Shown here: positions 852 to 37,352 of the stretch, one piece after another
Position numbering within the stretch: the stretch's first letter is position 1
Layout: the number at the start of each line of letters is the position of its first letter
Virus record (IMG/VR): IMGVR_UViG_3300031688_000052
Span: 1-37,352 of that record
Source: a virus
Direction: 5' to 3' (one strand)
DNA length: 37,352 nucleotides
The notes under the pieces: generated by a model
The model's database searches: none
What the model saw: only the letters and a program-made list of their open reading frames with translations
What the model was told of the DNA's origin: nothing
Position numbers and translations under genes: made by a program

Positions 852-1478
852 ATGGTTGTAGATGTTCCAGTGCAAAATATCATAGTTAATGATATTAAAT
901 TTGATGATACAAACCCAAACATACTAACCCCTGAACAAATGATTGCACTCAAATCTACAATGGAAAAATATGGATTTTTAGCACCTGTAATTTTAAACAA
1001 AAATTTAGAAGTAATTGACGGTGAGCATAGAGTTACAGTGTATAAGGAATTAAAAAAAGAAACAATTCCTGCTTATGTGTTAGATATAGATACCATTGAC
1101 AAGAAAATTTTAAGACAATTAATGAACAAGTTAAGAGGTGAGCATGATCCATTCAAAGATAAGGAAGAATTTAAAATGATACATGAGGCAGGGAGATTAA
1201 ATGACTTTACTGATTTACTAGCAGTAAACATAGCAGATTTTGACAAGGTAATTAATCCACCAACTGATAACAATGAAAATAGAGAATCAGAAAAAGTAGA
1301 ATTATCACAAGAAAATTACCTTAACGGAACAATCAAACAAATGATCTTATTCTTTAGCAACGAGGATTATGAAACAATTATGCCAAAATTTGACAAGCAC
1401 ATGAAGGCATTAAACGTTGATAATCATACTGATTTAGTTTTGGAGTTTTTCAAAGAGTATGAAGCAAATCACGCTTGA
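852..1478 (+). CDS. ParB/sulfiredoxin-fold protein, first gene of the base-modification operon
   Basis: The N-terminal half (residues about 8-95) is a ParB/Srx-type domain: LTPEQMIALKSTMEKYGFLAPVILN, then the core motif VIDGEHR (54-60) and a following helix. The C-terminal half is acidic and unassigned. ParB-fold proteins can bind DNA, hydrolyse CTP or act as nucleases. In viruses they often sit beside DNA methylases or base-modifying enzymes. Here the gene overlaps the dioxygenase gene by 20 bases, so the two are probably made together. I infer a DNA-targeting or regulatory role in hypermodification. Plasmid-type partitioning is unlikely because no ParA is seen. Confidence 0.75.
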   Translation: MVVDVPVQNIIVNDIKFDDTNPNILTPEQMIALKSTMEKYGFLAPVILNKNLEVIDGEHRVTVYKELKKETIPAYVLDIDTIDKKILRQLMNKLRGEHDPFKDKEEFKMIHEAGRLNDFTDLLAVNIADFDKVINPPTDNNENRESEKVELSQENYLNGTIKQMILFFSNEDYETIMPKFDKHMKALNVDNHTDLVLEFFKEYEANHA

Positions 1479-2295
1479 ACGTAACAGCTCATTTGAGCCA
1501 AAAGAGTATTTATTAAAAAATGCAACAGATTCAGATTATGAAACATTAATCACTGATAACACGTTAATCAGGGATAAAGATACAGGGGAAATAATAATTG
1601 TTTACATGAAACTAAAGGAAGGTGTAGATGAATTAAGGGAGGCAATTATCAATTTAAAATACAACAAAGGCAGGAGGGCAGGAGGCTTAAAGAGTTATGA
1701 CAAGATATTTGGGTATATGTCTAGAATAGGATTTCAAAACGATTATTGTAGCACAGCAGGTTTCGCAAGAGAATCTCCAAAGAACCATAAGACGGTATGC
1801 GATTATGGCGATAAATTAGGTGATCTGTATAAAGAATATGTCCCAGAAATGTATGATTATCATAGTAAGATAGTAGCAGAAAAAGTAAAACCTGATTGGA
1901 TATTAGGCAATTCTCCATTTACGTCAGGCATTATCAATAAGAATAATCAATTAAATTATCATTATGATAGTGGAAATTTTAAAGACGTATTCAGTAATAT
2001 GATAGCATTTAAGAATAAAATTGAGGGTGGCAGGTTATCATTACCTGAATATAATATTGGATTTGAGATAGCAGATTCATCTGTAACACTCTTTGATGGT
2101 CAAAGAATACTTCATGGAGTAACACCAATCAAATACCTTGCACCTGAATCATATCGATTTTCTATTGTCTATTACAGTTTACAACAGATGTGGAAATGTA
2201 CTTCACCTAAGGAGGAATTGGACAGAATTAAAAAAGTTAAGACAGAAAGAAATCAAAACAGATATAAAAAAATGAAAGACGGTGAAGGTCAATAG
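1459..2295 (+). CDS. TET/JBP-like 2-oxoglutarate/Fe(II) dioxygenase (predicted DNA pyrimidine hydroxylase)
   Basis: The 278-residue protein has the double-stranded beta-helix signature of 2OG/Fe(II) oxygenases: HYD (H168, D170), the second iron ligand H219 in LHGVTPI, and R233 in YRFSIVYY for 2-oxoglutarate. GGRLSLPEYNIGFE (190-203) and the C-terminal YYSLQQMWKC match the pattern I know from phage TET/JBP relatives, as does the N-terminal CSTAGFARE segment (97-105). Members oxidise the methyl group of thymine or 5-methylcytosine in DNA. It is followed by a glycosyltransferase and a deacetylase, so the hydroxyl made here is probably glycosylated. Whether thymine or 5mC is the substrate cannot be read from sequence; no cytosine-5 methylase gene is seen. 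Confidence 0.85.
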   Translation: MKQITLERNSSFEPKEYLLKNATDSDYETLITDNTLIRDKDTGEIIIVYMKLKEGVDELREAIINLKYNKGRRAGGLKSYDKIFGYMSRIGFQNDYCSTAGFARESPKNHKTVCDYGDKLGDLYKEYVPEMYDYHSKIVAEKVKPDWILGNSPFTSGIINKNNQLNYHYDSGNFKDVFSNMIAFKNKIEGGRLSLPEYNIGFEIADSSVTLFDGQRILHGVTPIKYLAPESYRFSIVYYSLQQMWKCTSPKEELDRIKKVKTERNQNRYKKMKDGEGQ

Positions 2296-3224
2296 AATTT
2301 TTACATCTATCAACTCCCAAGTATGGAGGGTGGATAACTTATGCTTCACATTTAATTTTGCGTGACTACCCAAAGCAACATATATTCAAAGTTACAAATA
2401 GACTTGAAAAAAAAACAAGGGACTATGGATTTGGAGTAAAATATCAAAATGTGCCAAAAGAGGCATTAAAAACTTTCACTGATCCTGTCATTATTTCTCT
2501 TGATAGTCATTTCTATGATTGTGTCAAATATCTAAAAGAGCCTACTTTATTTATTCATGACACTGCTGAACCAAGTAAAAAAGAATCAGAATTATATCAA
2601 TCGTTTAAACGTGTATTAACACCAAGAAAAAGTATTGTTAAATTTTTAAAAGAAGAATATAATATTGACGCTGAATATGTAGGCACTCCATTTTATAATT
2701 ACCCAACAGGCACAGCAGAAGTCAAGACAAAAGCAATTTCAATGTGTAGAGTAGAATGGAGGAAAAATCAAGACATTATTTGTAAAGCAAATACTATGTT
2801 AGATACACCTATTGAGATTTGGGGTAAACGCAATCTAATTTATGTTTATCATACGTTGAAAGATTTAGGTTTTGATAAATGGGCAAGGGGTAAAAAAAAT
2901 ACAGGTGCTTATGATATGGATTGGATCACTAGACAAAAATTATTAAACCCTGCTAAATTTTCTATTGACCTGTCAAAATATGTAAGAGATGGGGGTGGAA
3001 CTGACTATGTTTCATTGGAAGCCATACATCATGGCACAGCAGTTGTATTTCATAGGGATTGGGTAAACATTGAAGGATCAATTTGGAAAGAAGGGTATAA
3101 TTGTTTTGCTGTTGAAACTCCAAAAGAGTTAGCAGATTTGATTAAAGAAAATCCTGATATTGAGAACGTTGTAAAGCACTCTAAATCCATTTTAAAACAC
3201 TCTATGGGGTTAAAAGTGATATGA
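2292..3224 (+). CDS. GT-B-type glycosyltransferase, predicted to glycosylate hydroxylated DNA base
   Basis: The C-terminal half has the GT4-like acceptor/donor pattern: a segment starting RVEWRKNQ, then DGGGTDYVSLEAIHHGTAVV with an acidic EAIHHG site, and EGYNCFAV before a final helix. The first TTG (2358) would remove a typical N-terminal nucleotide-fold segment, LHLSTPKYGGWITYASH, which is open upstream. No ATG, GTG or TTG exists there. GGTGA at 2281-2285 followed six bases later by ATA (2292), overlapping the upstream stop as ATAG, is my best start, giving 310 residues. If only canonical starts are allowed the gene is 2358-3224. It overlaps the deacetylase gene by ATGA. Donor sugar unknown; the deacetylase neighbour suggests an N-acetylated sugar. 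Confidence 0.75.
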   Translation: MEFLHLSTPKYGGWITYASHLILRDYPKQHIFKVTNRLEKKTRDYGFGVKYQNVPKEALKTFTDPVIISLDSHFYDCVKYLKEPTLFIHDTAEPSKKESELYQSFKRVLTPRKSIVKFLKEEYNIDAEYVGTPFYNYPTGTAEVKTKAISMCRVEWRKNQDIICKANTMLDTPIEIWGKRNLIYVYHTLKDLGFDKWARGKKNTGAYDMDWITRQKLLNPAKFSIDLSKYVRDGGGTDYVSLEAIHHGTAVVFHRDWVNIEGSIWKEGYNCFAVETPKELADLIKENPDIENVVKHSKSILKHSMGLKVI

Positions 3225-3820
3225 ACGTTTTAGCAGTAGGAGCTCACCCAGATGATTTTGAAGTTGGCTGTTACGGAACGTTAGCACAGCATAATATAGC
3301 AGGTGATAATTTATTTGGATTGACATTATGTTTAGGTGAGCATGGAGGTGATCCAGAAGTTAGAAAATCAGAGTCATTAAAAAGTGCCGATATAATTAAT
3401 ATGAAATTAGAATTTGGACATTTCAAAGATGGTATGATACCATACGATATTACTACAATATCATTTATTGAAAATTTTATTAAGAAACATAATATTGACA
3501 TTGTTTATTCTACTAGCATAAATGAAAGACACCAAGACCATAAGAATATAGGGTTGTCAGTATTAGTAGCAGGAAGAAACATACCAAAAGAGGTATATCA
3601 ATTTGAAACAATATCAACTACAAACGATTTTGATCCAAGAATGTTTAAAGATATTAGTGATGTAATTGAGATTAAAAAACAATGTATTGATCAACATAAA
3701 TCACAAGAGCATAGAACATATATTGAAAATTATGATGTAGTGAATAAATGGAGATCATTAAAACTAGGTTATCCAGAAAGATATTATGAATCATTTGAAA
3801 TTATTAAATTGGTTAAATAG
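3221..3820 (+). CDS. PIG-L/LmbE-family N-acetyl sugar deacetylase
   Basis: The 199-residue protein opens with the family's zinc motif GAHPDD (residues 7-12) and carries the second motif RHQDH (103-107). The length fits the LmbE-like fold. Known members remove acetyl groups from N-acetylglucosaminyl conjugates (GPI, mycothiol, bacillithiol pathways). It overlaps the glycosyltransferase stop as ATGA, so the two are translationally coupled. Inference: after the glycosyltransferase adds GlcNAc or a similar sugar to a hydroxymethyl base, this enzyme exposes a free amine. Acting on a free sugar donor is an alternative. Confidence 0.85.
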   Translation: MNVLAVGAHPDDFEVGCYGTLAQHNIAGDNLFGLTLCLGEHGGDPEVRKSESLKSADIINMKLEFGHFKDGMIPYDITTISFIENFIKKHNIDIVYSTSINERHQDHKNIGLSVLVAGRNIPKEVYQFETISTTNDFDPRMFKDISDVIEIKKQCIDQHKSQEHRTYIENYDVVNKWRSLKLGYPERYYESFEIIKLVK

Positions 3821-3822
3821 AG

Positions 3823-3830
3823 TTTATATT
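3823..3830 (+). promoter_or_regulatory. TATA box of the small-gene operon
   Basis: TTTATATT, 26 bases before the ATG of a six-codon mini-ORF (3849) and 50 before ATG 3873. It would drive the string of overlapping small genes at 3873-5686. Confidence 0.5.
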
Positions 3831-3848
3831 TTTAAGCAAAACGTTGAT

Positions 3849-3869
3849 ATGGATCTCAATATAATATAG
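3849..3869 (+). other. Candidate leaderless mini-ORF (6 aa) before the small-gene operon
   Basis: ATG 3849 starts MDLNII and a stop, three bases before ATG 3873. Its ATG sits where the transcript from the TATA box at 3823 should begin. Possibly a leader that delivers ribosomes to the next gene by re-initiation. A chance ATG cannot be excluded. Confidence 0.25.
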
Positions 3870-3872
3870 GGT

Positions 3873-4058
3873 ATGAAAAGATTAATTTTCCCAGATGAAG
3901 CACTTAATTGTGAGTGTGGATTCAAAGGTAATTTGAAACAAATGGAAAAGCATTTTAAAAACACTTGGACATTTGTAAATTACAGCAGTCCTTTAAGAGT
4001 AGATAAGAATGGTCATTATACCATTGACAATTTTTTCACAAAGAGGGGATTAAATTGA
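3873..4058 (+). CDS. Small hypothetical protein with N-terminal CxC (61 aa)
   Basis: Not recognised. LNCECGF near residue 12 and a histidine in MEKHFKNTW could form half of a zinc site. It is the first gene of a run in which stops and starts overlap; its stop overlaps the TTG of the next gene as TTGA. Confidence 0.55.
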   Translation: MKRLIFPDEALNCECGFKGNLKQMEKHFKNTWTFVNYSSPLRVDKNGHYTIDNFFTKRGLN

Positions 4059-4261
4059 CACCTCAACAAATGGTGATTCAGTTAGAAAAAGTACAAAAAT
4101 TACTAAAACTAGCAGATAATGGGTACAACAGTGGATTATTATTCACATCAAATTGTATCATAGATGGATTAAAAGAGAATTGTGACGAAAAAGGATATTC
4201 ATTAGATGGAGAATATCAAACCATTGGTAGAATAGGTGCCAAAAATGAGAGGTGGAATTAA
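4055..4261 (+). CDS. Small hypothetical protein (68 aa)
   Basis: Not recognised. Predicted helical N-terminus (QQMVIQLEKVQKLLKLADNG). The TTG start is supported by a strong Shine-Dalgarno (AGAGGGG) about eight bases upstream and by overlap with the previous stop. Confidence 0.55.
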   Translation: MTPQQMVIQLEKVQKLLKLADNGYNSGLLFTSNCIIDGLKENCDEKGYSLDGEYQTIGRIGAKNERWN

Positions 4262-4657: not shown

Positions 4658-4857
4658 AAAGAGGATTTACAGAAAAAGCCTTTAGGATATATCTAGACCA
4701 ATTAAACCCTAAAGGAATACAATTAAAGCATGAAGATGATTGGTTTAAAGACGCATGGGATTTTCAAAAGAAATCCAATACAACATACAGAACCATGTAT
4801 AATGAATGGTTAGACATGAATGAAAAAGATGGCTTTGATACAGGGAATTATGTATAA
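4654..4857 (+). CDS. Small hypothetical protein (67 aa)
   Basis: Not recognised. A charged, aromatic-rich protein with no cysteines (DDWFKDAWDFQKKS). ATG overlaps the upstream stop; the stop overlaps the next ATG. Confidence 0.55.
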   Translation: MKRGFTEKAFRIYLDQLNPKGIQLKHEDDWFKDAWDFQKKSNTTYRTMYNEWLDMNEKDGFDTGNYV

Positions 4858-5015
4858 TGATGCACATCTGTGATCAATGCGTTGGTAGATATGATTGTGG
4901 ATATGGCAATCCATGTTCTAGTCATGGTGAACAAATATGGTGTTCAGATAAGTGTAAGGAAGCATGGTTTGATGATATATTCCAAGCAAATCTAAAAGAG
5001 GGATTAAAACAATGA
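4857..5015 (+). CDS. Tiny zinc-ribbon-like protein (52 aa)
   Basis: Two close ATGs (4857 and 4860) begin a 52-residue protein. It has CDQC near the start, CGYGNPC in the middle and CSDKC further on, enough cysteines for one or two zinc knuckles. Start and stop overlap both neighbours. Its DCGYGNPCS segment is nearly repeated in the protein at 5125 (DCGYGDPCSS), so the two are probably paralogues. Function unknown; protein or nucleic-acid binding is typical of such ribbons. Confidence 0.6.
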   Translation: MMHICDQCVGRYDCGYGNPCSSHGEQIWCSDKCKEAWFDDIFQANLKEGLKQ

Positions 5016-5128
5016 AACCAACATACAAAGAAGCCAAAAAAGCATACAAAGTATATCAATCAGGTATGAGTAATGGTGGAGAGTTTTGGGAGATTTTAGC
5101 AGAATATTTCAAAGGAGATAAAGAATGA
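5012..5128 (+). CDS. Tiny hypothetical protein (38 aa)
   Basis: A 38-residue frame of lysine/tyrosine-rich helix then GGEFWEILAEYFKGDKE. It overlaps both neighbours by four bases and has GAGGG upstream. Not recognised. Confidence 0.5.
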   Translation: MKPTYKEAKKAYKVYQSGMSNGGEFWEILAEYFKGDKE

Positions 5129-5268
5129 GTGACCATAATTGCAGAACGTGTGGAGGAAGATTTGACTGTGGCTATGGTGATCCATGTAGTAGTAAATGGC
5201 AAAGAATAGACTGTCCATTATGTCTAGCAGATTATATCAAAATGGGTAGAATTGAGGACTTGAAATGA
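5125..5268 (+). CDS. Tiny zinc-ribbon-like protein (47 aa)
   Basis: Cysteines occur as CRTCGGRFDCGYGDPC and CPLC, giving a treble-clef or double-knuckle pattern. It shares the DCGYG(D/N)PCS segment with the protein at 4857, suggesting duplication. AGGAGA ribosome-binding site; stop overlaps the next ATG. Confidence 0.6.
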   Translation: MSDHNCRTCGGRFDCGYGDPCSSKWQRIDCPLCLADYIKMGRIEDLK

Positions 5269-5363
5269 TATATAATTCTGACAGCCCAAAATGTTTTTAC
5301 TGTGGAAAACAATTTACAAGGACAGCAAACAAGAACAAACATGAGGATATAAAACATGAGTAG
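5265..5363 (+). CDS. Single C2H2 zinc-finger microprotein (32 aa)
   Basis: The whole protein is little more than one finger. CFYC is followed by twelve residues, then HEDIKH, giving C-x2-C-x12-H-x4-H, the classical C2H2 spacing, with an aromatic F in the usual hydrophobic place. Such single fingers are known as DNA- or protein-binding factors in archaea and their viruses. It overlaps both neighbours in the operon. Confidence 0.6.
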   Translation: MIYNSDSPKCFYCGKQFTRTANKNKHEDIKHE

Positions 5364-5589
5364 CCTACCACCTGGAATAACAGATAGTATGTTAGAAGGG
5401 AGTGATGATCCATGTGCAAGATGTGGTCACGTTTGGTCAGAACATCTAGATGAGGAAGATTATGTGTATGACGCAGAAGGATATGTAGTAACAGCCTGTA
5501 ACAATAAATATTGTGACGGTTGTGAGGGATATTTAGATGGTGAATATGAGCCTTGGCGACCTGATACATTGGAAGAATATAATGCCTAG
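5356..5589 (+). CDS. Acidic zinc-binding protein (77 aa)
   Basis: Cysteine pairs CARCGHVWSEH, then CNNKYCDGC, in an acidic background; the first cluster plus H resembles a zinc knuckle. GAGGA lies before the ATG. It overlaps the genes on both sides by eight bases. Role unknown. Confidence 0.6.
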   Translation: MSSLPPGITDSMLEGSDDPCARCGHVWSEHLDEEDYVYDAEGYVVTACNNKYCDGCEGYLDGEYEPWRPDTLEEYNA

Positions 5590-5686
5590 GTGTAATCAAT
5601 GTAAAGGCAGAGGCAGTACACCTACATATAACAAGAATCTGGACAGGCTAAAGTGTACAAAGTGTAGAGGCGTTGGTTGTTTATGA
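5582..5686 (+). CDS. DnaJ-type zinc-repeat microprotein (34 aa)
   Basis: Contains two CxxCxGxG repeats (CNQCKGRG and CTKCRGVG), the motif of the DnaJ central zinc domain, in only 34 residues. It ends the run of small overlapping genes. Binding to unfolded protein or an adaptor role is possible but unproved. Confidence 0.6.
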   Translation: MPRCNQCKGRGSTPTYNKNLDRLKCTKCRGVGCL

Positions 5687-8099: not shown

Positions 8100-8171
8100 A
8101 TGTCCACTTTATTGTTTAATTCAGGTATTAGTTCTATTAATTACCAAATAAATAATCGTGGATCATTATAG
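8100..8171 (+). CDS. Candidate leaderless 23-residue peptide upstream of gene 8171
   Basis: ATG 8100 lies where transcription should start from the TATA box at 8072. The frame runs 23 codons and its TAG overlaps the GTG of the next gene (TAGTG). The next gene has no ribosome-binding site, so this peptide may carry ribosomes to it. Confidence 0.35.
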   Translation: MSTLLFNSGISSINYQINNRGSL

Positions 8172-8527
8172 TGGCATACGGTCTTTATCTCTTAATGGAT
8201 CAGCCAAAATGGTTTAGAGGGGATTTTAGCACTACAAACAAACTGACAGGGACATTATACTCTGATCAGAAATTTACAAGAAAAGCAGATTTAACAGGAT
8301 TTACAATTACAATTAGACTAACAAAGAATCATAGATGGGGAGATTATTTTAACAGAGTTGGAAGCATTGTAAGTGCTACCAATGGAACATTCTCATACGC
8401 AATAGCAGAGAATGAATTGCCACCACCTGGACTATACAATGTCAAGATTGAATTATCTAAATCAGGTGCTAGAGAATCAACATTAAATAGACAGGAATTA
8501 TTAATCATTGAAGGTGCCACAGCTTGA
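8171..8527 (+). CDS. BppU-like beta-sandwich virion protein (118 aa)
   Basis: The middle reads DLTGFTITIRLTK and later GTFSYAIAENELPPPGLYNVKIEL, the pattern of N-terminal BppU/baseplate domains that attach fibres to tails. A second protein of the same style is at 22020. GTG start coupled to the upstream mini-ORF; its stop overlaps the TTG of the portal gene. Structural role inferred. Confidence 0.55.
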   Translation: MAYGLYLLMDQPKWFRGDFSTTNKLTGTLYSDQKFTRKADLTGFTITIRLTKNHRWGDYFNRVGSIVSATNGTFSYAIAENELPPPGLYNVKIELSKSGARESTLNRQELLIIEGATA

Positions 8528-9867
8528 ATAATCCCTTTAAAGAAACTAGAATTGAGGAAGCCAAAGCACCATTAGCAAAGATAGTCAGATCAGATTTTTC
8601 AAGGGAGCAACCAATACAAGTTACATTCGAGCAGTTGATTAAGTATCACGACAGGACACCACAATTACAAATAGCAGTATCATCTTATTCAGAATTAATA
8701 ACAGGGACAGAAATGAATGTCACTTGTGAATCAGATACAGCAACAGAGATACTAAACGATTGGATAAGACAATCTGATTTTTATACAAAGTTTGAAAACA
8801 TGGTCACTACCTGTCTAATCACAGGCAACAGTATCTTAGAGAAATTAGATGAGAATGATATTCAAGACGTTGAGGAAGTTGATATGCAAACCATCATAGC
8901 CAAGAAAAGAGATGAGTTTGGAAAGTTAGAACATTACGAGCATAGAACAAACAACGGTCAAACAGCTAAACTGGGAGCAGGTAAACTGGGAAAATTTATC
9001 GAATTTAATTTAACAAACTATTCTAAACAGGCATGGGGAAAATCATTATTTTATTCACTAGCCATTCCAAGAACAATAGGCAACAGAACAACTCCACCGT
9101 TAATTGAAGTCATGTGGTCAATCGAAGATGCTATGTCAGCCATCATTATGAATAACGCTTATCCAATTACAACAATTACTTATCCAGGTGCTAGTGATCC
9201 ATACTTAGAAAAAGAAGCAGTAAGATGGCAAAAATACAAGCCAGGTGACAAGAGAGTTCAAAAGATAAAGCCTGAAATAGATTTCTTTGAAACAGCAGGG
9301 AATAGTAAGTACACTGATTACATTACTCACTTGGAGAAAGTGTTTGAATTAGGCACTCAATTCCCACACGACATAATGACGGGTGACTTTACTAGCAGAG
9401 CCTCATCTGAAACAACAGATAACATTGTAATGAAAAGAGTAAGAGGTTATCAGCGTTATTTGGCTAACAAACTAAAAGTAGAATTATTTGATAACATACT
9501 AATCCAAAACGGATATGATCCAGAATTGGAAGAATGTAAAGTTGCTTTCACTACACAAAACATTGTAGAGTTACAAGTTGATCAAATTAAAGAATTATCT
9601 GTACAAGGGTTAATGACCAAATCAGAATCAAGAGAATGGTTAAGAGTTAACACTGGAATGGAATTACCTGATGATGATGAGATACAAGCAAATCAAGACG
9701 CACAAGCAACCATAGCCAAAAACGCACAGGACATTAAGAAGGAGCATTTCATTAAAGATAATCTAAAACAAATATCAGAAGTAAAAGCAAAGACAATAAG
9801 GAAATGTAAGATGTGCAAAGAATCTCAACACGCCCTTTGTACCAAACGTGGGTGTCAATGTCAATGA
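8524..9867 (+). CDS. Portal protein
   Basis: 447 residues, with the all-alpha/beta order and length of tailed-virus portal proteins: an N-terminal wing with WIRQSDFYTKFENMVTT, then LEKVFELGTQFPHDIMTG before the long stem helix, and a QNIVELQVDQIKELSVQGLMTKSE-type C-terminal region (quoted in part: QIKELSVQGLMTKSE). It follows terL in the standard order. The last 25 residues carry five cysteines (CKMCKESQHALC...CQC), an unusual zinc-binding-like tail. TTG start overlaps the previous stop. Confidence 0.85.
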   Translation: MNNPFKETRIEEAKAPLAKIVRSDFSREQPIQVTFEQLIKYHDRTPQLQIAVSSYSELITGTEMNVTCESDTATEILNDWIRQSDFYTKFENMVTTCLITGNSILEKLDENDIQDVEEVDMQTIIAKKRDEFGKLEHYEHRTNNGQTAKLGAGKLGKFIEFNLTNYSKQAWGKSLFYSLAIPRTIGNRTTPPLIEVMWSIEDAMSAIIMNNAYPITTITYPGASDPYLEKEAVRWQKYKPGDKRVQKIKPEIDFFETAGNSKYTDYITHLEKVFELGTQFPHDIMTGDFTSRASSETTDNIVMKRVRGYQRYLANKLKVELFDNILIQNGYDPELEECKVAFTTQNIVELQVDQIKELSVQGLMTKSESREWLRVNTGMELPDDDEIQANQDAQATIAKNAQDIKKEHFIKDNLKQISEVKAKTIRKCKMCKESQHALCTKRGCQCQ

Positions 9868-15956: not shown

Positions 15957-17594
15957 ATGGCTGATGTTAAGATTTCTGCACTTGGAGCAATATCCGCAGT
16001 AGCAGGTGAAGATTTAGTAGCAATAGTAGATGATCCATCTGGAACACCTGCCTCAAGAAAAGCAACAATAACTCAACTAGCAACTTTCATTAATGCAAGT
16101 GGTATCACAGCCTCAAGTACAGCAACTTTAACCAATAAAACCATTGACGCAGAAGGAACAGGAAACAGCATATCCAATATTGATGTGGCTAACCTTAAAT
16201 CAGGTGTACTAGACACCGATATTTCATCAGTATCAGGTAGTGACGATACAATACCAAGTGCAAAAGCAGTTAAAACAGCAATAGACGCAAAAGCCTCAAC
16301 CATATCTCAATTAACTGACACAACAATTTCATCAGTAGGGGACAATGAATTATTACAATATGACAGCTCATCTTCAAAATGGATTAATCAAACAATAGCA
16401 GAAGCAGGTTTATCTCCTGTTGCAGGATCATCTAGCATAGTAACAACTGGAACAATAGGAACTGGAACATGGCAAGGAACAGCCATAGCATCTGCATATA
16501 TCGCAGGTGACGCTATTGTTGCTTCAAAAATTGCTGACAATGCTATTGATTCTGAACACTATACAGATGGAAGTATTGACCTTGCACACATGAGTGTAAA
16601 CTCAATAGATTCTGACCAATACGTTGACGCAAGTATTGACCTGGTTCATTTATCTGCTGATTCTGTTAACGGAACAAAAATAGCAGATGATTCTATTAAT
16701 TCAGAACATATAGTTGACGGATCAGTTGACTTGGCTCACATGAGTGTAAATTCCATTGATAGTGATCAATATGTTGACGGATCAATAGATTTAATCCATT
16801 TAAGTGCTAATAGTGTAGATTCAAATCAATACGTTGATGGCTCTATTGACCTGATTCATCTAAGTGCTAACAGTGTAGATAGTGACCAATATGTAGATGG
16901 TTCTATTGATTTAATTCATTTAAGTGCCAATTCAGTTGATTCAAATCAATATGTAGATGGATCAATAGATAATGTTCATGTAGCAACAGGATTAGACGCA
17001 GTAAAACTAGCAGATGGAAGTGTAACCAATGCAGAATTACAATATATCAATACTTTATCATCTAATGCACAAACTCAAATAAATAGTAAATCTGCAACAG
17101 CAGGTAATACATCACTCACAACTGTGGGAACTATTGGGACAGGAACATGGAACGCAACAGTAATAGCAAGTGCTAAACTAGATGCTGACACAGCCCATTT
17201 ATCTACAACACAAACTTTTTCAGGTGCTAAAACATTTAGTGCTAATGTTGATGTTGCAGGTAATAATATTGACAATGTTAGAAATATTATACATGACATT
17301 GAAACCTCTGGAACTGACATTAATTTTGCGGAAGATGATCTTCAAACAATATCTATATCAGCCGCAACAACATTCTCAACAGCATATAGAGCCGCAGGAA
17401 AAACAAAAGTGTTAAGAATACTAGCAGATGGAACTGACAGAGTTTGTACATTCCCAAGTGGAATAAGATGGTTAGGAGTTGCTCCATCATCTAACACTTA
17501 CACAGTAACAGCCAGTAAGTATGCAATAGTTACATTGACCTGTTTTGACGGAAATGAATCAGGCATACTTGGTGTTTTCGCACTAGAGGCGTAA
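15957..17594 (+). CDS. Tail fibre protein with tandem 20-residue repeats (545 aa)
   Basis: The N-terminal part carries fibre-like segments (ATLTNKTIDAEGTGNSIS, TVGTIGTGTW-type strands). The centre has about seven copies of a 20-residue unit such as NSVDSNQYVDGSIDLIHLSA, suggesting a repetitive shaft. A second GTIGTGTWNATVIASAKL segment and a beta-rich C-terminal domain follow. I know such GTGTW-type sequences from marine phage fibres. Strong GGAGG ribosome-binding site. Likely role: host binding. Confidence 0.75.
   Translation: MADVKISALGAISAVAGEDLVAIVDDPSGTPASRKATITQLATFINASGITASSTATLTNKTIDAEGTGNSISNIDVANLKSGVLDTDISSVSGSDDTIPSAKAVKTAIDAKASTISQLTDTTISSVGDNELLQYDSSSSKWINQTIAEAGLSPVAGSSSIVTTGTIGTGTWQGTAIASAYIAGDAIVASKIADNAIDSEHYTDGSIDLAHMSVNSIDSDQYVDASIDLVHLSADSVNGTKIADDSINSEHIVDGSVDLAHMSVNSIDSDQYVDGSIDLIHLSANSVDSNQYVDGSIDLIHLSANSVDSDQYVDGSIDLIHLSANSVDSNQYVDGSIDNVHVATGLDAVKLADGSVTNAELQYINTLSSNAQTQINSKSATAGNTSLTTVGTIGTGTWNATVIASAKLDADTAHLSTTQTFSGAKTFSANVDVAGNNIDNVRNIIHDIETSGTDINFAEDDLQTISISAATTFSTAYRAAGKTKVLRILADGTDRVCTFPSGIRWLGVAPSSNTYTVTASKYAIVTLTCFDGNESGILGVFALEA
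16552..16980 (+). repeat. 60-base tandem repeats in the fibre gene
   Basis: Units of about 60 bases encode the QYVDGSIDLIHLSANSVDS repeat. Third-codon positions vary between copies (AGTGTAGAT, TCTGTTAAC, TCAGTTGAT), so amplification is not recent or is followed by diversification. Confidence 0.8.
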
Positions 17595-17599
17595 ACATA

Positions 17600-18595
17600 A
17601 TGTTTGGCTCACTTTTGAAAACATATTCTGAAACAAGTAAACCCCTTGATATGTTTAATTTGGGTATTATGTTTATTCCTAATGCAAATGTTACACACCC
17701 TGCACCTCAAATTGGAGTTTTTTCAGGTGGTGTGGTATCAGGGTGGGGAACTACCAATGTTTCTCATAAAGTTGATTTTACTAACAATACAGCAAACGGA
17801 TCATTTGGAAATTTGGGAGCTTCAAGATCCCAAATGAGTGCTGGAGTAGCAAGTGCTGATGGAGTGGGTGCTGTTGGTGGTGGAGGAAATCAGTTAACAA
17901 ATATGTATAAAGTTGATTTTTCAAACGATACAGCAAACGGTAGTTTTGGAGCTTTGGCAGTAGGTAGAAAAAAAAGTTGTAATATGTCAAGCGGAGATGG
18001 AGTGGGTGCTTTTTGTGGTGGCACTACTGACGCAACTAACATGAGTAATGATTCAGATAAAATCACATTTTCAAACAGTACATCTAATGGTGCATTTGGG
18101 AATTTGGCAAACGGTAGAAGGTATGCCGCAGCTTGTTCTAGTAATGATGGTGTAGGAGCAGCTTGTGGAGGTAATATATCAGGAACAAATTACAGTACTG
18201 ATTCAGATAGAATAGATTTTTCAAACAATACAGCAAACGGTAGTTTTGGAAATTTGGCAACAGGTAGAAGGGACACTACAGGTGCGTCAAGTTGTGATGG
18301 GAGAGGTTTAGTTGTGGGAGGTCAAGTTGGAGGTGGTTACACATCAGATACCGATTTAATTACATTTTCAAACAATACAGCAAACGGTAGTTTTGGAGCT
18401 TTGTCGGGAACAGCAGCTTCAAGAATGGGTGTATCAGCCACAGGTGTTGCAGTATTTTCAGGTGGTGGTCTAGGTGGTAATTTCTTTTCAACTGATTCTG
18501 ATAAAGTTGATTTTGACGCAGGAACAGCAAACGGTAATTTTGGAGCTTTGGGAACAGGTAGATATGATGGAGCAGGAACAGGTTATCAAGTATGA
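17600..18595 (+). CDS. Repeat adhesin, probable six-bladed beta-propeller (331 aa)
   Basis: After about 35 unique residues the protein consists of roughly 49-residue repeats. Each has a (K/R)(V/I)(D/T)FSN-T-NGSFG(N/A)L segment followed by GR and a GVGA--GG turn. About six units are present, as expected for a kelch-like propeller. Similar GG-rich repeat proteins occur in marine phage tails. Directly after the shaft fibre, it is a good candidate for the receptor-binding head. It overlaps the next gene by four bases. Confidence 0.65.
   Translation: MFGSLLKTYSETSKPLDMFNLGIMFIPNANVTHPAPQIGVFSGGVVSGWGTTNVSHKVDFTNNTANGSFGNLGASRSQMSAGVASADGVGAVGGGGNQLTNMYKVDFSNDTANGSFGALAVGRKKSCNMSSGDGVGAFCGGTTDATNMSNDSDKITFSNSTSNGAFGNLANGRRYAAACSSNDGVGAACGGNISGTNYSTDSDRIDFSNNTANGSFGNLATGRRDTTGASSCDGRGLVVGGQVGGGYTSDTDLITFSNNTANGSFGALSGTAASRMGVSATGVAVFSGGGLGGNFFSTDSDKVDFDAGTANGNFGALGTGRYDGAGTGYQV
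17786..18545 (+). repeat. About 147-base repeats in the adhesin gene
   Basis: The string ACAGCAAACGGTAGTTTTGG or close variants recurs at about 17790, 17930, 18077, 18229, 18377 and 18525, spaced 140-152 bases. Some copies are almost identical at DNA level, which would allow recombination between blades. Confidence 0.75.
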
Positions 18596-19383
18596 GTGAT
18601 ATTGAATTATCTTGTTCACATGATATAGAAAATACCACATTGACAAATAATCAGATAGAAAAAATAAAATCCAGATTGCCTGAATTTCATAGGGCTTCAA
18701 CACAGATAGGTCATTCACATTCCCAAGCAAGTTTTACACTACAAACCCTTCAAGAATTTTCATCACCATTACAAAAAATGAAACAGTGTATTATACAAAT
18801 AAACAAAAGATATACCGCATTGGAAGAAACTCATTTTAAACTAGAAGAATCCAAACTTGATTTACGAAAAATAGAATTTAACACAGATGATTATTCAAAG
18901 TTAAAGATTAAGAAATTTGAATCAAACATGGTTCAAACTAAAATGTATATGGATAATGCGTTGAGGGAGTTAGGAATGTTTCAAGATATTTATGATCAGA
19001 TGTTAAAATCCAATAACATATCTGAAAATTGGACAGAAAAAGATTTTGAGGATCAGGAAATATCACACATGATAAGGTCAGCATTTAGAATAGCAGTACA
19101 AAATTTAACAAGTGGTAATACTGTTCAAAGAGGTGCATTGGATTATTTTGAACAGTTAGGAATTAATCCAACCATAGCGGAATTTAAATCAAGACAGTAT
19201 ATTGAATTGTCTAGACAAAAAGCAAATGAGGGGATAACTGTTACAATCAGTGACTATTATGATTTTTTGGACAGTATGGCAATAGAGTTTAAGGATTCAT
19301 ATAAGTTGGCATTGTCAAGAATGGGTTTGACAGAAATAGGAAGTGCTGATTTTGTAAACACTGGAATTACTGATCCAAGTTAA
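18592..19383 (+). CDS. Coiled-coil virion-associated protein (263 aa)
   Basis: Long helices with coiled-coil character (ALEETHFKLEESKLDLRKIEF) and no membrane segment. Not assigned to a family. It overlaps the adhesin by four bases, so it may be a fibre chaperone or a connector between fibre and tail. Confidence 0.6.
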   Translation: MSDIELSCSHDIENTTLTNNQIEKIKSRLPEFHRASTQIGHSHSQASFTLQTLQEFSSPLQKMKQCIIQINKRYTALEETHFKLEESKLDLRKIEFNTDDYSKLKIKKFESNMVQTKMYMDNALRELGMFQDIYDQMLKSNNISENWTEKDFEDQEISHMIRSAFRIAVQNLTSGNTVQRGALDYFEQLGINPTIAEFKSRQYIELSRQKANEGITVTISDYYDFLDSMAIEFKDSYKLALSRMGLTEIGSADFVNTGITDPS

Positions 19384-19409: not shown

Positions 19410-20189
19410 ATGAAACAATACTATTTCCTGTGTGGATTGCCACGAGCAGGGAACACATTATTTGCCAGTTTAATGAATCAAAATCCTGACGTATCTGTAA
19501 CAGCAAACAGTATAGTTTCAAGATGTTTTAATAACTCACAATTTTTAAAGAATGAGGAAGTTTATCAAAACTACCAAGATGAAGAATCTTTGAACAATGT
19601 TACCAGGGGAATTATTCCAAACTATTATTCTCACTGGAAATCAAATCATATAATTGATCGTTCAATGTGGGGGTTATCTGATAATTTTGATATGTTAAAA
19701 CAATTCGCACCAAATGATATTAAGGTCATTGTTCCTGTTCGTGATTTAAAAGAGATACTTGCAAGTTTTATCAGATTTTCATATTCCACAATAGATAATT
19801 ATATAGCAAAAAACGCAAGTTCATTAGTTGAAAGATGTGAATATGTTACAGGCGATAGAGGCACATTTAGAAAATGGATTGAATGTGTATGGAATTTAAA
19901 CAAACCTGAAAATAGAAAATACTGTTACTTTATGGAATACAATGATCTAATATCTAATCCTAAAAAAACAATATCAGAGGTGTATAATTTTCTTAATATA
20001 GATCCATTTGAACACAAGTTTACTGATTTAAATCAATTAGAAAATAATGGCATAAAGTATGATGATACTGTATTAGGAGGTGATTTGCATAAAATTAAGG
20101 TGGATAAAATACAGAAATCAAATTATGATATATGGGAATATTTGCCAAGTGATGTTGATAAACGTTACAGATTAGATAAATTTTGGTAA
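19410..20189 (+). CDS. PAPS-dependent sulfotransferase
   Basis: A 259-residue protein with the 5'-phosphosulfate loop GLPRAGNTLFASLM (residues 9-22) and the 3'-phosphate-binding segment VPVRDLKEILASFIRFSYS. A C-terminal YNDLISNPKKTISEVYNFL fits the family. Such enzymes transfer sulfate from PAPS to a hydroxyl or amine of a sugar, lipid or protein. Placed between fibre genes, it probably acts on virion glycans, host surface sugars or, more speculatively, on sugar-modified DNA. No viral PAPS synthesis gene is seen. Confidence 0.8.
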   Translation: MKQYYFLCGLPRAGNTLFASLMNQNPDVSVTANSIVSRCFNNSQFLKNEEVYQNYQDEESLNNVTRGIIPNYYSHWKSNHIIDRSMWGLSDNFDMLKQFAPNDIKVIVPVRDLKEILASFIRFSYSTIDNYIAKNASSLVERCEYVTGDRGTFRKWIECVWNLNKPENRKYCYFMEYNDLISNPKKTISEVYNFLNIDPFEHKFTDLNQLENNGIKYDDTVLGGDLHKIKVDKIQKSNYDIWEYLPSDVDKRYRLDKFW

Positions 20190-37055: not shown

Positions 37056-37352
37056 ATGAAGCCTGATTGCATAATTATCCGTAATGAACTGAATGGTAAA
37101 GTAGAATTTGTATCAGAACAAACTGAATGGCAACACAAGTGGGAAAAAGATGTATTGACCTATGATATTGAATACCATGAATCATTAAAATTAATATCTA
37201 AACGACAATTAAAACGTGCTGTAAACCTAGCAGTATCAACATGGAATTTTGAGATACCATTGAAATTTAAGTCAGCATGGAATACTCAAGCAGATATAGA
37301 AATCAGATTTAAGACTAAAGATGAGGACAATTATTTCAAAGATAAACCAAGT
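37056..37352 (+). CDS. Matrixin-like zinc metallopeptidase (5' part; continues at window start)
   Basis: ATG 37056 opens a frame that reaches the window end and matches the left-edge gene from its codon 45 onward. Its first 44 residues (EWQHKWEKDVLTYDIEYHE and on) are the pro-region-like N-terminus missing on the left. In the overlap the two copies differ by K/N and R/K changes, and one Ser codon is TCA on the left but AGT on the right. Confidence 0.85.
   Translation, partial: MKPDCIIIRNELNGKVEFVSEQTEWQHKWEKDVLTYDIEYHESLKLISKRQLKRAVNLAVSTWNFEIPLKFKSAWNTQADIEIRFKTKDEDNYFKDKPS
37187..37352. repeat. Right copy of terminal direct repeat
   Basis: Matches 1-166 with no gaps; the first 126 bases are identical, then 8 of 40 differ. 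See the left copy. Confidence 0.9.

Follow-up and report, generated by a model that had tools for sequence, protein, structure and literature searches.

Predicted TET-initiated thymine hypermodification and exchanged tailoring modules in a thaumarchaeal-type tailed virus

Introduction

The IMG/VR virus record IMGVR_UViG_3300031688_000052 (37,352 nucleotides, analysed as a whole and called the window throughout) carries a cassette of four genes for a ParB-fold protein, a TET/JBP dioxygenase, a glycosyltransferase (GT) of the GT-B type and a PIG-L deacetylase (Table 1). The question raised by this locus is what these enzymes make, and on which molecule. An initial annotation, made from the letters of the DNA, had proposed a base-J-like pathway in an archaeal tailed virus that would place a deacetylated amino sugar on a hydroxymethyl-pyrimidine. 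Here, we find it likely that the cassette performs a TET-initiated hypermodification of thymine with a sugar, and we put forward more tentatively, as its exact product, alpha-glucosaminyl-hydroxymethyluracil, a base for which we know of no natural occurrence. The most interesting feature of the cassette is module exchange: close relatives have other decorating enzymes in this place. Accounts of TET-type pyrimidine hypermodification in the literature that could be read come from bacteriophages and eukaryotes; for archaeal tailed viruses, one survey reports only 7-deazaguanine routes, the words dioxygenase, glycosyltransferase and hypermodif- being absent from its text (PMC8651126).

Table 1. 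Genes of the cassette, with positions in the window.
Feature	Position	Strand	Length	Basis
ParB-N-fold protein, cassette gene 1	852-1478	+	208 aa	Pfam ParB_N, PHROG 498/620
TET/JBP 2-oxoglutarate/Fe(II) dioxygenase	1459-2295	+	278 aa	PF12851, PHROG 6059
GT-B (GT4-like) glycosyltransferase, TET-associated family	2292-3224	+		ATA start; family alignment and structure
PIG-L/LmbE-family N-deacetylase, cassette gene 4	3221-3820	+		PF02585 E 6.4e-16

Results

The dioxygenase matches the Tet_JBP profile PF12851 at 55.3 bits (cut-off 34.9; E-value (E) 6.1e-15) and PHROG 6059 at E 7e-48, and it is 33% identical to gp2 of mycobacteriophage Serendipitous (E 3e-40). The HxD...H iron ligands H168, D170 and H219 and the distal 2-oxoglutarate arginine R233, which the initial annotation had picked out, are invariant in an alignment of the window protein with IMG/VR and actinophage sequences, and the assignment to TET/JBP stands. 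Judged by its sequence, the enzyme most likely hydroxylates the 5-methyl group of a pyrimidine in DNA, with thymine favoured. The proposed ParB fold is likewise borne out: the window protein falls under the cut-off of Pfam ParB_N (E 1.2e-4) and matches PHROG 498 and 620 (E 1e-17 and 2.5e-16), and its orthologue in the related locus L004 clears the Pfam cut-off (E 1.5e-6). Proteins with a ParBc domain are frequent companions of another phage DNA-modification system, in which their function is unknown (PMC12783734); in the window, the protein probably brings the oxygenase to DNA or directs it there. All four genes of the cassette are under purifying selection, with nonsynonymous differences (pN) of 0.11-0.30 against synonymous differences (pS) of 0.49-0.77 in gene pairs.

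The cassette had been described as four overlapping or adjacent genes, and these are real and correctly placed, except for the start of the GT gene, which is ATA 2292. The earliest ATG, GTG or TTG in this frame is TTG 2358. In the orthologues of L008 and L009, ATG stands at the exact position of the window's ATA, and the residues that precede TTG 2358 (IEFLHLSTPKYGGW) form the start of the protein in both. The 22 residues between the two codons make up the first beta strand, followed by the GGW loop, in the structural model, and codons 1-22 show a pN of 0.019 against a pS of 0.552. Because of the relatives' ATG, the selection on these codons and the modelled first strand, we place the start at the ATA. 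This codon is listed among the start codons of translation table 11, a GGTGA motif lies 6 bases 5' of it, and a second assembly (L003, with 20 differences from the window across 10.3 kb) has ATA at the same place. Such a start possibly serves low-level translation or coupling to the TET gene. Joining of TET and GT by a -1 frameshift was considered and rejected: a TGA in the GT frame at 2283 stands just before the join, with no slippery site after it.

The GT itself had no sequence match in Pfam, PHROG or PDB, nor did it match PF20691 (TAGT); a few members of its family weakly match Glycos_transf_1 and Glyco_trans_1_2. AlphaFold2 gave a model with a pLDDT of 38 from 4 sequences and of 94.8 from 46 family members. 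The best PDB match of this model in Foldseek was BshA (3mbo, E 9e-11), and the top matches, at E 9e-11 to 2e-8, include BshA, TarM, HepE, MshA and PimA. According to the model, the enzyme has a GT-B fold with GT4 enzymes as its nearest structures, as the initial annotation had supposed. The PIG-L family of the fourth gene, first read from its AHPDD motif, agrees with the profile match in Table 1: H9, D11 and D12 of the motif and the C-terminal zinc histidine H107 are invariant in relatives. In PDB, its relatives are the LmbE-related 2ixd, BshB1 (6p2t) and a diacetylchitobiose deacetylase. The neighbourhood of the nearest PIG-L in the phage database (MT837438, 33%) has no TET, ParB or GT gene.

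We then compared the cassette with its closest relatives. The window, L004 and L012 are collinear on either side of the site that follows the TET gene, and most of the flanking proteins are 65-98% identical. Between TET and the gene for a DUF6908 protein, the window has GT-B, PIG-L and two small open reading frames. In L004, the same site encodes an amino acid:DNA transferase-like protein, with 37% identity to a mycobacteriophage family that includes Prince gp3 (ADDT, PF18724 E 1.4e-8), and a P-loop kinase that has an annotated 5-hydroxymethyluracil (5-hmU) DNA kinase among its relatives. In L012, it holds a TAGT-like enzyme (E 1.6e-8 to the PHROG beta-glucosyl-HMC-alpha-glucosyltransferase, with a weak match to the TAGT Pfam at E 0.006). 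The more distant L009 and L010 have TAGT, GT-B and PIG-L, and L014 has TAGT, a radical S-adenosylmethionine (SAM)/SPASM protein, a further TAGT and PIG-L. Similarity also differs from gene to gene, as expected for traded parts: window and L008 are 78% identical in GT, 55% in TET and 25% in PIG-L, and window and L090 are 54% identical in GT and 55% in PIG-L. The TET tree did not settle whether the window and L008 clades are sisters, and hence gives no direction of transfer. Judged from these sequences, the different decorating enzymes of close relatives suggest that DNA chemistry is readily changed in these viruses. With the same reserve as for the exact product, we propose that, within one lineage, a fixed ParB-TET front is joined to a whole decorating module that is swapped at one site (for an amino sugar, for an amino acid through kinase and transferase, or for a hexose through a TAGT-like enzyme), so that close relatives would have chemically different DNA, alpha-glucosaminyl-hydroxymethyluracil included. 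Both the TET (4749-5628) and TerL (8124-9549) genes of L012 are split by frameshifts, which reflect sequencing error or decay.

Across IMG/VR, 482 relatives of the window TET were found, and ParB adjoins TET in 68 of the 71 loci with enough upstream sequence. The GT-B family, searched with the window GT sequence only, has at least 129 members. TET lies at most four genes from GT-B in 49 of the 78 loci examined, 44 of which also have ParB. In the TET-free loci that were inspected (L150, L156 and L158), the GT-B gene is accompanied by a thymidylate-synthase-like protein, identified by profile in L156 (PF00303 E 8e-21) and L158 (E 1e-24), and L156 further encodes a 5-hmdU DNA kinase helical-domain protein (PF18723 E 2e-46) beside GT-B. 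Many other TET-free GT-B loci look similar, judged from gene sizes alone; in L134 and L139, GT-B is paired with radical SAM proteins instead. This proximity to TET, taken with the neighbours in the inspected TET-free loci, indicates that the GT-B family is associated with enzymes that produce hydroxymethyluracil or use it. If the cassette does decorate thymine, the family would be a second TET-associated glycosyltransferase family.

Some further genes stand near these cassettes. The radical SAM/SPASM protein of L014 (3803-4792) has a TAGT-like gene on each side within its ParB-TET cassette. Similar radical SAM proteins, recognised by profile, lie next to GT-B in L134 and L158, and the same seems true of L139; their presence suggests an additional modification of base or sugar. 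A conserved protein of 186-189 residues is encoded directly 3' of PIG-L in L008 (7802-8371), L009 (3790-4353), L010 (2974-3534) and L014 (6070-6630); it has a sulfotransferase-like motif only and no profile match. Among its structural genes, the window encodes a sulfotransferase-domain protein (19410-20189, PF00685 E 1.7e-12). A single sulfotransferase common to the window and L008-L014 was rejected, as these two proteins could not be aligned by BLAST. Near its cassette, L008 also encodes a Dam-type adenine methyltransferase (1238-1657) and a protein like 3'-phosphoadenosine-5'-phosphosulfate (PAPS) reductase (3397-4242).

The first and last 163 bases of the window are 97% alike, and L003 reads through the joint of its ends, which together give a circular genome of about 37.19 kb. 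The window encodes an MCM helicase whose matches in the phage collection are archaeal viruses only. When 50,697 phage records were searched with its TerL, the sole hit was the Nitrososphaera provirus Pro-Nvie1 (44%, E 7e-104); the portal (E 4e-12), protease (E 4e-24) and capsid (E 6e-44) proteins resemble those of this provirus as well and occur in the same order. These sequence similarities give good support to the view, in line with the initial annotation, that this is a thaumarchaeal-type tailed virus, and its host probably belongs to the ammonia-oxidising archaea. Scans of cellular genomes with MCM and TerL found no relative, though they used short peptide patterns that divergent relatives can escape; the host assignment therefore rests on similarity between viruses. 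Elsewhere in the window, a matrixin (M10) metallopeptidase gene runs across the circular joint (37056-37352 and 2-565) and is conserved in L004 and L012, and tail-fibre-like genes at 16500-18600 contain internal repeats.

Discussion

We propose that the ParB-fold protein would guide the TET/JBP dioxygenase on viral DNA, where the enzyme would convert the 5-methyl group of thymine after replication, giving 5-hydroxymethyluracil. The GT-B enzyme would add a sugar to the hydroxymethyl group, most likely alpha-N-acetylglucosamine (GlcNAc) from uridine diphosphate (UDP)-GlcNAc, and PIG-L would strip the acetyl group from it. The resulting glucosaminyl-oxymethyluracil would have a free amine, and the DNA might be shielded from host nucleases. 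BshA adds GlcNAc, and a PIG-L-family deacetylase then acts in the same pathway. The amino sugar is supported by this parallel, since the fold of the window GT is nearest to BshA, whose pathway continues to the PIG-L-family BshB, akin to the window PIG-L. In bacillithiol and mycothiol synthesis, BshA/BshB and MshA/MshB show the same pairing of a GT4 GlcNAc transferase with a subsequent PIG-L-family deacetylase, and they are among the nearest solved relatives of the viral pair; their acceptor, however, is malate or inositol phosphate and not the DNA proposed here. The deacetylated amino sugar on a hydroxymethyl-pyrimidine thus stays the best reading and gains from the BshA-like fold, although we infer its chemistry.

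Several observations weigh against this scheme. The TM-scores of 0.57-0.68 between the window GT and BshA are those of GT4 enzymes in general, and the fold does not fix the sugar. The EX7E motif of the GT is altered: the region reads DGGGTxYxxLEA, with the second glutamate conserved (E243) and the first off its usual spacing. Translation of the GT hinges on its ATA start, the window PIG-L is about 26% identical to that of the mycobacteriophages, and a cytosine methyltransferase encoded by the host could be a source of 5-methylcytosine. In that last case, the cassette would work on host-made 5-methylcytosine and yield glycosylated 5-hydroxymethylcytosine, a chemistry that has been reported for certain phage TETs. 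The TET/JBP family overall carries out both chemistries, and a passage of PMC12730594 that summarises Burke et al. 2021 states that phages often pair a C5-methyltransferase, a TET/JBP dioxygenase and glycosyltransferases in making glycosylated cytosine. We consider this route unlikely for the window, where no cytosine methyltransferase was found among the + strand open reading frames of at least 120 aa or by a motif scan, and where dependence on a host enzyme would limit the sites that can be modified. The exchanged module of L004 and the inspected TET-free GT-B loci, moreover, hold genes of the hydroxymethyluracil pathway, and it is on these genes and the missing methyltransferase that we prefer thymine over 5-methylcytosine. 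The same open reading frames contained no match to a thymidylate-synthase-like gene (PF00303), which would make hydroxymethyluracil at the nucleotide level.

The dioxygenase might also hydroxylate DNA while GT and PIG-L belong to an adjacent, separate pathway for a glycan of a virion protein, the tail or the host surface. GT4 and PIG-L enzymes commonly make metabolites or glycans that are not part of DNA, as do the closest PDB entries of both proteins. Nevertheless, the TET and GT genes overlap, as do GT and PIG-L, the proximity of TET to the GT-B family recurs in 49 of 78 loci from many unrelated viruses, and a collinear relative has DNA-modifying enzymes where the window has this module, all of which makes a separate glycan pathway improbable. 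Even harder to credit is a decayed or inactive cassette of relict genes. The start codon of the GT is non-standard, and the TET of L012 is split by a frameshift, but purifying selection acts on all four genes, GT codons 1-22 included, the catalytic residues quoted above for TET and PIG-L are all intact, and ATA is a listed start with GGTGA upstream. Sugar-bearing hypermodification of thymine, initiated by TET, is thus the explanation that we carry forward.

The cassette type itself is already known. Genes 1-4 of the mycobacteriophages Serendipitous, Acadian and Indlovu are ParB, TET, GT and PIG-L, with the same functions and order as in the window, and in mycobacteriophages this set, annotated or detectable, sits just before the terminase genes. 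Their hosts, however, are bacteria, whereas the window virus is archaeal, and the GT of Serendipitous is a TAGT of the GT-A family (PF20691 E 2e-37) without sequence kinship to the window GT-B. The arrangement therefore has precedents (Serendipitous, Indlovu), while it is new for a thaumarchaeal-type virus; the initial annotation had known of no such pathway in a thaumarchaeal virus. Gordonia phage Wooper, Rhodococcus phage Tonitrus and Mycobacterium phage Prince encode ParB, TET, aGPT-Pplase2/ADDT and a 5-hmU DNA kinase; an actinophage set of ParB, TET, aGPT-Pplase2 and 5-hmU kinase has been termed a thymidine hypermodification system (PMC11955845). The front half of these systems is that of the window and their back half is matched in L004; in the window, an archaeal virus, GT and PIG-L take the place of this back half.

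The comparison with base J holds loosely. As in the kinetoplastid pathway (JBP1/2 and a glucosyltransferase), oxidation of a pyrimidine by TET/JBP would be followed by glycosylation. Base J, however, is beta-glucosyl-hydroxymethyluracil, whereas a retaining GT4-like GT-B with a deacetylase is predicted to give an alpha-linked amino sugar, and the 278 residues of the window TET leave no room for a J-binding domain. Among archaeal tailed viruses, those of haloarchaea hypermodify a base by the 7-deazaguanine route (DpdA, preQ0/G+; PMC8651126), which exchanges a purine base with enzymes unrelated to the window cassette.

Against the literature that could be read, three things are new here: the GT-B family, the module exchange and the occurrence of the cassette in a thaumarchaeal-type virus. 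If our reading is true, TET-type pyrimidine hypermodification would extend to viruses of ammonia-oxidising archaea, and a group of closely related viruses that differ by exchanged tailoring modules would be at hand. Such an exchange would make the protective target of each decoration directly testable.

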